Part shown: one piece after another, positions 11,794 through 41,895 of the stretch
How the letters are laid out: every line of letters starts with the position of its first letter
How positions within the stretch are numbered: the stretch's first letter is position 1
Assembly: GCA_022340565.1 (NCBI GenBank)
Contig: JAJDNR010000018.1
Location: 43,800-107,799, forward strand
Source: Desulfofustis sp.
GTDB taxonomy: Bacteria > Desulfobacterota > Desulfobulbia > Desulfobulbales > Desulfocapsaceae
Length of the DNA: 64,000 nucleotides
Direction of reading: 5' to 3'
Position numbers and translations under genes: made by a program
The notes under the pieces: model-generated
What the model was told of the DNA's origin: nothing
The model's database searches: none
Seen by the model: only the letters and a program-made list of their open reading frames with translations

Positions 11794-12037
11794 TGTTATA
11801 AGTACGACAATGTGGCAATTGACTTTCGGCCGCTCTTGCGGTAGCACATATAGCTGGCAACATAACCACGGATTCTTAAGAATATTCACCGTCTATGCAA
11901 AATTTTGAAAGTTCGGCCTTACGACGCTTCGACGATTTCAAAATCAGCCATGCCGCACTCCGGCTTCTTATCGATCGTGTCGAAGTTGTTTTCCGATCTG
12001 TTTCACTCACCCATCAATTCTGACTGAAGGAGGAACC

Positions 12038-13381
12038 ATGAAAAGGGCGTTTATCGCTGGTATCGCCGCTTTTGCCGGTGCCGCGCTGATGGCGTTCAAC
12101 GCTTACAGCGAAGGCGGGCCGAAGCCGGAACCGTTACCAAAGGCAAAAACCATTGCAGAACTGGCCGAACGCTATGATTCGGAGCGGTGCGCAGAGTGTC
12201 ATGAGGATATTTACGACGAATGGCAATATTCACTCCACTCCCATTCGATCCTCGGATCTCCCCGAACGGCTCCTACCATTATCACCGCCATTGAAAACGG
12301 GATAAAACTCTTCCCCTACTCCGGGGTGAAAAACGACGAGGATCTCACTGTCGAACACCTGATGATCTGCGCCAAATGCCATCTGCCTCAACTCGACGAA
12401 GCGACCGACGACGTTGCCCGCGAGATAGTCGCGACCATCAAGGGCTGGCAGCAGGCCTACCGGGATGGCGACACAGACAAGGCCGAGAAACTCGAGGAGA
12501 CCATTGCGAGCCTGAACATCGGCTGTACCGTCTGTCATCAGAAAGTTGCAATCATACACAAATGGGCGGATGGATATCCGCAGTACGATACCGTTTACGG
12601 TTCCTCGGAGGGTGACCATGAGGACGAGGAGCTCGTCAAAATGGCGGAAGCCCCGGCAATCGGCGAATCGATTTTCTGCGGCCAGTGTCATGGACTCGGT
12701 CCGAACTTCGAACTCGATCATCCGTCTCAGTGCGCAACCCTTTACGGCAGCTACCTCTTTGCCTACGTCGCGCACGGCGGCAGTGAGACCTGCCAGGAAT
12801 GCCACATGGAGAAATCGGGGCTCGGCCATGACATGCAGTCCTACAAGGACGAAGCGATGATCGACATGGCCCTCGATGTCAAAGTCGAAGGCAGATCCAT
12901 ATTCTGGCGCAAGAACAAGGCTGAAGGCGTCGTTCCGATCGGCATCATCGATGTATCCATGTACAACAAGGCGGGACATGTCATCCCGGACGGCTGACCG
13001 ACTCCGAACCGGCTGGTCCTGGATGTGACCGCGACAACCAAGGATGATGAAGTAGTATTCAACGAACAACGTATCTACATGCCGTTCCCGGGAAGATTAG
13101 GCAGAGGCAAGGAGATGGGCAGAGGGCCGTATGAAAAGAGCGGTCTGCTCAGGGAAACGAGCCTTGCTCCCGGCAAGACAACCCATGAAACATTCGAAAT
13201 CACCTATCCTTTCGAGGATAAGGAAAAAGATGGTAAGACCAGACGAGAGCTTATCGAGGACGAATTGACCGTCACCGTGACCCTGTGGTACGTGCCGTTT
13301 GGTGAATTCGATGGAAACGAAGTGGCCTTTTTCGAAACAGAAAAAGACATTAACCTGAAAACGGAGTGGGTCTGGAGATAG
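12038..13381 (+). CDS. Pentaheme c-type cytochrome selenoprotein (ExtKL-like); Sec at TGA 12995-12997
   Basis: Signal peptide; five CXXCH motifs (CAECH, CAKCH, CTVCH, CGQCH, CQECH). Frame reads ...VSMYNKAGHVIPDG-[TGA]-PTPNRLVLDVTATTKDDEVVFNEQRIYMPFPG...KTEWVWR*, in frame with the separately listed 13025-13381 ORF. Confidence 0.85.
13009..13022 (+). promoter_or_regulatory. Candidate bacterial SECIS element for the pentaheme cytochrome
   Basis: CCGG-CUGGUC-CUGG: 4-bp stem (one G-U pair), loop containing GGUC; the loop GG starts 17 nt after the UGA. Weakest of the three hairpins. Confidence 0.6.
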
Positions 13382-13771
13382 AGGTCTCCCGACCATCCCT
13401 ACCCCTGGCAAAGCCCATGCGCTCGTCGAGTGCATGGGCTTTGCGCCATTCGTGCGCTACTGATGCGCTATCAAGAATCGAAATTTTCATTGTAATTTTC
13501 TGAAAAAGATTTACTTTATTTAATTGTTTAATTATTTAATTTATTGTCAAACCTAAGGCTACCTTGAAAAATTAGGGTTTTGGTTCAAAATCAAGGCACG
13601 CAAGGAAATTTTACCGGAGGCATATAGTTCATATGTCGAGGATTAAATTTCCATGCGTAACGCAGAGCTTGGGACAAGAAACAATTTTTCAAGCTAACCT
13701 TACGGTATTCCGCCTTAAACCTGCAGCACATGTTTTTCGTATCAATTCAACATCGACACAGGAGGATTCTT

Positions 13772-15100
13772 ATGAAATTGAAAGGTATCGTTAATCTTTT
13801 GCCTTTTGCCCTGATGCTGGCACTGCTGGCCGCCGGCTGTGCACAGCAGGCCGACTCGACTGCCAAGGCCCCCGCTCAGCAGACAGCGCAGCAAGCCGAT
13901 CCTAACGTTTATACAGGACCGATCGGCGGCAAATCGAACAAGGCCAAGACCATTTCCATGACCGTCGGCAAAGGCGACGACGCCAAGGACGTGATGCTTC
14001 GCTTCGATGACAACACCGAGGGACTCGAGTATGCGAAGAAAGGCGAAGCGGCTATCATCAAGTGGGAACAGCGCGGTGACGACAAATACGCCACGATAAT
14101 CAAGCCCAAACTCGCCAAATTGCCCGAAGGCGTAACCGAAATCAAGGCCGATGAGCTTTATAAAATGCTATCTGATCATGTACCGATGTTTCTCGCCGAT
14201 GCCCGCCCCGAGATGCGCTACGACCAGGGTCATCTGCCATCGGCCGTTTCCATCCCGGTGCCGCTGCTCAAAGAGAAGAAAGCCAAGGTCCTGCCTAAGG
14301 ACAAAAACCAGCTGATCATTTTCTACTGCGGAGGGTACACCTGAGGCATGTCGACTGAAAACGCCGGTCTGGCGAGACAGCTTGGCTATACCAACGTTCG
14401 CGCATTCCTGGGTGGCGAGCCCGCCTGGAGCGAAGCCGGATATCCGGTGTACGCATCCAACGACTTTGTTGTGAAAGGCAATATCGTGCTGCTTGACCTG
14501 CGCTCAGGAGATGCTCCGGTGCAGGGAAGAATTCCGCGGTCGGTCAATATCAAGTACGAAGACCTTGAAAGCCGCATGGATGACATCCCCCGCAATGCGC
14601 CGGTGGTCCTCTATGCCGACAACCTCGATGACGTCACTGACGCTTATGAGGACATGAAGGATGCAGGCTTCAATACCGTTGCGATGGTAAAAGGCAATTT
14701 TCAGGGCTGGGTCGCCTCCGGCGGCGCGGTTGAATCGGGACCGATTTTCTCCAATGAAATAAAGTGGGTGCGAAAGCTCGGCAAGGGCGAGGTATCGGTC
14801 GATGAATTTAGAAAAGCGGTCAAGGGCGAACTTCCCGACACCTTCGTAATCGATGCCCGTACTCCCGATGAAATCAAGGAACTGGGAATATTCACGAACA
14901 CCGTTAACATCCCTCTCGACGAGATTCCCAAACGAATGAACGAGATTCCCAAAGACAAGCGGGTTTTCGTTCACTGCTCGACCGGCGCACGGGCTGATCT
15001 CGCCTATCGAGAATTGATCAAGAATGGGTACGACGTTAAATTCCTGCTGCTCAACATCAGCGATCCGGAATGTGACTGCCCGATTATCATACCGGAGTAA
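13772..15100 (+). CDS. Triple-rhodanese-domain lipoprotein, selenoprotein (ExtH-like); Sec at TGA 14342-14344
   Basis: Lipobox LLAAGC; frame reads ...KDKNQLIIFYCGGYT-[TGA]-GMSTENAGLARQLGYTNVRAFLGGEPAWSEAGYPVYA..., joining the 13730-14344 and 14348-15100 ORFs in one frame. The first rhodanese domain is split by the TGA. Confidence 0.87.
14362..14374 (+). promoter_or_regulatory. Candidate bacterial SECIS element for the rhodanese lipoprotein
   Basis: CGCC-GGUCU-GGCG perfect stem, GGUCU loop, 21 nt downstream of UGA; possible outer CUG/CAG stem at 14355-14357/14378-14380. Confidence 0.8.
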
Positions 15101-40404: not shown

Positions 40405-41895
40405 TTGAAAGTGACGAGCACCGAACCTACCAGACCCCATCCCGGGCGCAGCTTTGACAACCCGCTGCATGCGCTGTCCGGGAAAAAACGCATTGCCCTG
40501 ACAGTGCTCGCGGTTCTTGTCATCGTCGTGACGGTAACCCTTATCCACCTCATCCGTATCTCGGGATACCGGCTGCTGTACGCGAATCTCTCAGCAGACG
40601 ACGCGGTGCACGTCACTTCTTGGTTGAATATCCATGATATCGGTTTCAGGACAAAAAATTTCGGCCGGGACATCTATGTTGCCGGAGATCGCGTCTATCA
40701 GACGAGGTTTGATCTCTCCCGTGAGTTGCCTGCCGGTACCTCAGGTTCCCTGCGCCCCACACCATCCTCTTCGGCGCTCGATGAACAGGAATTGGCCCGG
40801 ACCATCGCGTCGCTCGACGGTGTCGAGTACGCCAGGGTGAGGATTTCACGCGGAGAAACGGCTGGTTTCGAAACATCAGAACCGCACGCATCAATCCTGA
40901 TCCAAAGTCCGCCCGACTCGGCATTATCCCGGGACGATCTGGAGTCGATCACCAGCCTGGCATCCCAGGTTATCCCCGACCTTCATCCCGAGCATGTCGA
41001 TATCTACGACGCATCCGGTAGAAACCTCTTTTCGGGAAAGCGCGAAGCAGAGGTATCGAACGTCCCGTCACCGCTGCTCCTCTATCAGCAGTCTCTAGAG
41101 CGCCGTCTCGAACAGCGTGCCGGGGAGACGGTCGATGCGCTTATCGGCTCCGGGCGGGCCATGATACGGGTTACCGTGACCCTGGACAATTCGCGGTCGG
41201 AATCGACTTCGGAACAATTCGATCCCGATCGCACCGCCGTCAAAAAAGAGCTCACGGAATATGCCCCTGGAAGCCGTTACACACCAGCAGAACAGACCGA
41301 TCAGATTCAATTCCTTCCGCCTGTTCCCACCACTGCCTCGATCGATTATGAACTGAACAGAACGGTCAAGAAGACGGTTAAGCCAGCCGGGGCCATCGAG
41401 CGCATATCGGTTTCCATCCTATTAGCCGGGAAACCGCCGGAACACCAAGACGATCAGGTCTCGTCCAGCGCCACCAGTGAAGAAGAACTGCTCGCACTCG
41501 AGTCTGCGGTATCCAATGTATTGTCGCTTCGACCTGAGCGGGGCGACTCCGTAACCATAATTCCGATCCCTGATCGCGCTGATAAACATGATTTCATCGA
41601 CTCCGAGCCGGTTCGGGACATCCCCTATCATCTGATCCTTCCAGTTTTCAAAATGGTCATGACTATCGTCGGTTTTGGTCTTCTCTACCTGCTGATCGTC
41701 AGGCCGCTTCTCGACATCCTCTCCCAAAAAGAGGTCGCCGCAAAAGAGACCATGCACACGCTTGGTCCTGAACGCTCAGAAGATGAAGAGAAGCCGCAAA
41801 CCGATGAAGATCCGACTGCAGCGCTGAAAGACGAAATTCTCCGAAATCCGTCGGCTACCGTGCATATTATCAAAAACTGGCTGCAGGAAACCTGA
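40405..41895 (+). CDS. fliF: Flagellar M-ring protein FliF
   Basis: GYRLLYANLSADDAVHVTSWLNIHDIGFR, ELARTIASLDGVEYARVRIS; two TM segments; TTG or GTG (40411) start. Confidence 0.9.
   Translation: MKVTSTEPTRPHPGRSFDNPLHALSGKKRIALTVLAVLVIVVTVTLIHLIRISGYRLLYANLSADDAVHVTSWLNIHDIGFRTKNFGRDIYVAGDRVYQTRFDLSRELPAGTSGSLRPTPSSSALDEQELARTIASLDGVEYARVRISRGETAGFETSEPHASILIQSPPDSALSRDDLESITSLASQVIPDLHPEHVDIYDASGRNLFSGKREAEVSNVPSPLLLYQQSLERRLEQRAGETVDALIGSGRAMIRVTVTLDNSRSESTSEQFDPDRTAVKKELTEYAPGSRYTPAEQTDQIQFLPPVPTTASIDYELNRTVKKTVKPAGAIERISVSILLAGKPPEHQDDQVSSSATSEEELLALESAVSNVLSLRPERGDSVTIIPIPDRADKHDFIDSEPVRDIPYHLILPVFKMVMTIVGFGLLYLLIVRPLLDILSQKEVAAKETMHTLGPERSEDEEKPQTDEDPTAALKDEILRNPSATVHIIKNWLQET

Follow-up and report, generated by a model that had tools for sequence, protein, structure and literature searches.

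Does the TGA codon at positions 12995-12997 end a pentaheme cytochrome gene of the sulfate-reducing bacterium Desulfofustis sp., or is it read as selenocysteine (Sec), such that the heme domain and the sequence downstream form a single protein? We address this question in a window of 64,000 nucleotides, by which we mean the whole stretch of DNA that was analysed, from a draft genome (a MAG, G000) of 3.32 Mb in 225 contigs with a completeness of 94.24%. The comparison of sequences and a structural model lead us to hold, with high confidence, that the UGA is decoded as selenocysteine via a SECIS element, to give one ExtKL protein composed of a five-heme domain and a beta-sandwich. The features of the locus are the following.

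12018 to 12037, forward strand: leader upstream of the extKL ATG, GAAGGAGGAACC, which by its sequence is ribosome-binding-site-like.
12038 to 13381, forward strand: full read-through coding sequence of extKL, 447 amino acids, with putative Sec320; signal peptide, pentaheme domain and C-terminal beta-sandwich.
12995 to 12997, forward strand: UGA (putative Sec) codon in the context GHVIPDG-U-PTPNR; TGA in the close homologs, TGT in four distant copies, aligned with U325 of MccSep.
13015 to 13030, forward strand: SECIS-type hairpin of extKL, stem GGUCC / G(U)GACC, loop UGGAU; covarying, lost in Cys copies, and low in synonymous entropy.

The original prediction described an open reading frame, 12038-12997, that ends at a TGA while the frame itself stays open, and these coordinates hold: the frame opens at ATG 12038, meets TGA at 12995-12997, continues as PTPNRLVLDVTATTK... 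and closes at TAG 13379-13381. The single UGA of the read-through is codon 320, and all five CXXCH motifs lie N-terminal of it, as had also been predicted. The in-frame open reading frame 13025-13381 that had been noted 3' of the UGA is likewise present, and it has a GTG start. The five CXXCH motifs are invariant among 28 homologs. Judged by ExtKL, the nearest named relatives of the host are Desulfofustis, at 79-84% identity.

One line of evidence that the two parts belong together is family membership. The read-through product matches the NCBIfam model NF040886, "multiheme c-type cytochrome (seleno)protein ExtKL", with 575.8 bits (E=4e-173; curated equivalog cut-off, 250 bits), and the match extends over residues 17-441, that is, across the UGA. 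The closest PDB sequences are those of the "multiheme cytochrome c selenoprotein" MccSep, which align over 405 residues (34-438) with 505 bits. Three of these entries are wild type (9WT8, 9WTA, 9WTB), and two carry the U325A sequence (9WT9, 9WTC). Opposite residue 320 of our protein stands a non-standard residue in wild-type MccSep, U325, which the PDB entry labels as selenocysteine, and an alanine in the mutant. Thus the Sec positions of the two proteins align, although their sequences differ.

This family has a history. The Geobacter pair GSU2937 and GSU2936 was put forward in 2007 as a UGA-containing cytochrome (PMC1914089); the Geobacter selenoprotein ExtKL was treated in papers of 2018 (PMC5877670; PMC6148476), and ExtKL is included in a catalogue of 2026 (PMC13188914). 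The G. sulfurreducens gene and the NF040886 family share with the gene studied here the five CXXCH motifs, the in-frame UGA at GHxIPDG-U-P, the C-terminal domain and an end-to-end profile match. The gene is therefore a further member of the established ExtKL/MccSep family, for which structures are already known. The resemblance to a merged extK/extL family, pointed out in the original prediction, is borne out by these matches, and so is its warning that an annotation as two genes would break the link between the heme domain and the C-terminal domain, since both the single family model and the solved chain span the UGA.

The behaviour of this codon among homologs points in the same direction. 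Exactly one in-frame TGA is found in each of the 26 copies that score above the NF040886 cut-off among 58 relatives, and TGA occupies the Sec column in 41 of 41 aligned close homologs; that is, the family does not end at VIPDG but runs on past it. Across 395 sampled genomes of the phylum, a few ExtKL copies lack the UGA. In these the Sec column holds cysteine (TGT in the four distant copies), or isoleucine or valine in two divergent ones, and never tryptophan. Tandem ExtKL paralogs without Sec occur at two loci: at one (L181, G083:C12:94000-100500) isoleucine stands at the Sec column in one copy and cysteine in the next, and at the other (L185, G256:C132) one copy has valine there.

The synonymous sites and the rate of amino acid replacement provide two further measures. 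The synonymous entropy of extKL reaches its minimum in codons +4 to +12, counted from the UGA, which rank first among 223 windows. When the gene is compared with those of its congeners, dN is 0.09-0.12 after the UGA and 0.09-0.12 before it, many of the dS values being saturated or undefined; judged from these sequences, purifying selection is equally strong on both sides.

The original prediction also placed a hairpin with a GGUC-containing loop 17 nt downstream of the UGA. The hairpin and its distance stand: a stem of 5 bp with a bulged U begins 17 nt 3' of the UGA. The position of GGUC does not; these letters (13015-13018) belong to the 5' arm (13015-13019), and the loop is UGGAU (13020-13024), followed by the 3' arm (13025-13030) and lying 22 nt from the UGA. 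In 30 distinct sequences, a set that we selected ourselves and that omits the Desulfuromonadales type and six GGCAC/GUG-A-CC copies in another register, 98% of the cells are paired, three pairs are changed on both sides, and 0-1 of 500 shuffles score as high, which answers the call in the original prediction for a covariation analysis near the UGA. The six GGCAC/GUG-A-CC copies do not form two of the pairs in the fixed structure, yet they fold into an equivalent hairpin, and when three of them are added, 87.8% of the cells are paired and 1-5 of 500 shuffles do as well for most measures. The Desulfuromonadales-type genes have a hairpin of their own, ACCGAC-UGGUUCU-GUCGGU. Cys copies of extKL form just one to three of the five pairs. 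Folding of the single sequence is not significant (z of -0.5 to -0.9), and Rfam scans of the window and the hairpin region give no relevant match; the evidence for this hairpin is comparative, drawn from aligned sequences. A CCGG/CUGG hairpin with a GGUC loop, the structure nearest to that originally described, was considered and rejected, as it has no two-sided pair changes and its pairing does not exceed that of shuffles.

We conclude that the TGA of extKL very probably encodes selenocysteine, as originally predicted, because family membership, the alignment with MccSep, the exchange of Sec for Cys, the constraint on synonymous sites and the covariation of the hairpin all support it.

An AlphaFold2 model of ExtKL built with 28 homologs (mean pLDDT 77, pTM 0.73) shows what termination would cost the protein. 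The predicted C-terminal beta-sandwich has strands before the UGA (279-293 and 297-310) and after it (from 325-333 to 429-439). Since the strands sit on both sides, a stop at the UGA would cut through a domain. Among PDB folds, the model best matches that of cytochrome c552 from Thermochromatium tepidum (5ZE8; E 6e-13, 18% identity), which is pentaheme like ExtKL and aligns along nearly the whole chain, in agreement with the relation of ExtKL to c552 described for cable bacteria (PMC11976967). MccSep is absent among the fold matches listed, though it was found by the sequence search.

A second UGA-containing gene, which lies beyond the coordinates of the original prediction, follows extKL on the same strand.

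13772 to 15100, forward strand: coding sequence of a rhodanese lipoprotein, 442 amino acids, with putative Sec191 in YCGGYT-U-GMS.
14342 to 14344, forward strand: UGA (putative Sec) codon of the rhodanese gene; TGA in most homologs, TGC or TGT in four.
14362 to 14374, forward strand: SECIS-type hairpin of the rhodanese gene, CGCC-GGUCU-GGCG, 21 nt from UGA to loop.

The protein has three Pfam rhodanese stretches and a lipoprotein-like N-terminus. Its hairpin hardly varies among UGA copies and is disrupted in Cys copies, and the synonymous variation of the gene is lowest at codons +6 to +13 (rank 1 of 266). Its U-G-M-S, in the active-site loop of a rhodanese, is shared with form 1 (UxxS) of the rhodanese-like selenoproteins (PMC13188914), a match by motif only. 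The extKL and rhodanese matches are separated by 412 bp; the two genes are neighbours in this genus, in D. glycolicus (G025) and in two further genomes (G009, G006), more loosely linked in G015, and separate in others. Just 3' of extKL, at 13405-13443, there is a long inverted repeat, CAAAGCCCATGC...GCATGGGCTTTG, without a T-run, which may be a terminator or a processing hairpin between the two UGA genes. Of the other in-frame TGA pairs in the window, the conspicuous one, at 41893, was rejected as ordinary adjacent genes.

Bacterial SECIS elements have a published consensus (PMC13188914): an apical loop of 3-9 nt with a G within its first two positions, an upper stem of 4-16 bp, a distance of 16-37 nt from UGA to loop, and a minimum free energy of at most -7.5 kcal/mol. 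Both hairpins fit this geometry (for ExtKL, UGGAU, 5 bp and 22 nt; for the rhodanese, GGUCU, 4 bp and 21 nt). As for energy, the ExtKL hairpin alone folds at -7.4 kcal/mol, and the 25-nt rhodanese hairpin stretch alone adopts another fold, at -6.3 kcal/mol.

It is important to ask whether the host can decode Sec at all. In its MAG none of selA, selB, tRNA-Sec and selD is found above its cut-off. It is conceivable, therefore, that the lineage has recently lost Sec decoding, in which case the UGA would now stop translation, leaving a pentaheme protein of 319 amino acids, and the sequence downstream would be a fresh relic. All four genes are missing at the high completeness given above, and selD, which itself contains a UGA in the congeners, is present in 4 of 4 of them. 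The other genes are patchier there: selA occurs in three of the four, tRNA-Sec in two, and selB in one, as a partial match. Congener MAGs that are 85-92% complete also lack one or more of selA, selB and selC. Since the congeners jointly supply all four genes, assembly gaps are likelier than loss of the sel genes. Assemblies tend to drop selA in particular, and its position is a likely cause: in G018 (L135, G018:C1:1004000-1022000) selA directly adjoins an rRNA operon, with a stretch of 5,000 N between them, and roughly a dozen relatives have the start of selA at 200-700 bp from the end of a contig. Moreover, a relic is hard to reconcile with hairpins that are intact in both UGA genes and with a dN that is the same after the UGA as before it. 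We consider such a loss improbable.

Some observations on the machinery in other genomes bear mention. Archaeal-type Sec synthesis (SepSecS) in place of selA was considered and rejected, there being no match in 13 genomes. In three relatives with near-complete genomes of one or two contigs (G009, G016, G026), tRNA-Sec, selB, selD and UGA genes are present, and neither selA nor SepSecS was found. Several genomes have second matches of 89-99 nt above the tRNA-Sec gathering score (G008:C158, G024:C55, G036:C6, G029:C12 and others), either in addition to the main tRNA-Sec or in its place; they might be additional selC-like genes or unusual tRNA-Ser.

The remaining readings fare worse still. If the UGA were a true stop and 13025-13381 an independent gene, the split would be the one expected from standard gene callers, and a GTG start is indeed available at 13025; but this GTG lies within the hairpin with no ribosome-binding-site-like sequence seen ahead of it, the Cys copies have no stop at the Sec column, the predicted beta-sandwich would be severed, and the family model and the MccSep chain continue across the codon, so that we regard this reading as highly implausible. 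Equally implausible is that the UGA is read as another residue, such as tryptophan, or by unspecific read-through, as the missing Sec genes of the host MAG might suggest, given that the codon is replaced mostly by Cys and never by Trp, that the hairpin is tied to the UGA, and that selenocysteine is the residue named in MccSep.

Under the preferred reading, selenocysteine insertion, the UGA would be decoded with the SECIS hairpin, SelB and tRNA-Sec. In the product, the N-terminal domain would carry the five hemes and an Ig-like beta-sandwich would follow it in the same chain; Sec320 is predicted to lie in the GHxIPDG-U-P turn between the second and third strands of the sandwich. Electrons may then travel along the heme chain towards, or away from, a redox site of which Sec320 is a part. 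From what is known of the family, we infer that ExtKL serves in the periplasm, either as a redox enzyme or as an electron carrier, and that Sec belongs to its redox site. In line with the proposal made for Geobacter ExtKL, it would probably reduce a small oxidant of the periplasm, for example selenite or some other chalcogen species. Preliminary data link Geobacter extKL to selenite reduction (PMC5877670), and Fe(III) reduction there is little affected when extHIJKL is deleted (PMC6148476). A chalcogen substrate is our best guess, in part because a Sec-rhodanese adjoins extKL.

In this organism ExtKL would act without an outer-membrane ext conduit encoded alongside. Throughout the 64-kb window extKL is the sole open reading frame with at least two CXXCH motifs. 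Its surroundings, to about 14 kb, form a conserved gene run common to the congeners and, by reading of their sequences, appear to be mostly housekeeping genes. Desulfuromonadales extKL loci, in contrast, include a TetR-type regulator, a rhodanese, a porin and cytochromes of 12, 9 and 4 hemes, and in Geobacter-type loci extKL is accompanied by a rhodanese, the porin ExtI and the ExtM-S genes, multiheme cytochromes among them. At the present locus only a different Sec-rhodanese is adjacent, and no ExtI porin, ExtJ or further multiheme cytochrome of the Geobacter extHIJKL(MNOPQS) cluster stands beside extKL. Orthology of the neighbouring rhodanese to that of a Desulfuromonadales-type ext cluster was considered and found unsupported (BLASTP E 0.087). 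Since the neighbours differ, the conduit hypothesis is inapplicable to this locus. One might speculate that in this group ExtKL and the adjacent Sec-rhodanese lipoprotein form a periplasmic unit of two selenoproteins that is independent of outer-membrane conduits: the rhodanese would bind or carry the chalcogen, be it polysulfide or selenium, and the cytochrome would reduce or oxidise it; we put this forward tentatively, as a possibility rather than an expectation.

The ExtKL family being established, the finding is a useful annotation and not a surprise. Under standard annotation, each of the two neighbouring genes would be cut in two at its Sec codon. For the family, covariation together with loss in Cys paralogs makes this a clean comparative case for the SECIS element of ExtKL. 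For the organism, the tandem of ExtKL and Sec-rhodanese, with no conduit genes beside it, points to a function different from extracellular electron transfer, and since the cultured Desulfofustis glycolicus carries the same pair, that function is testable there.
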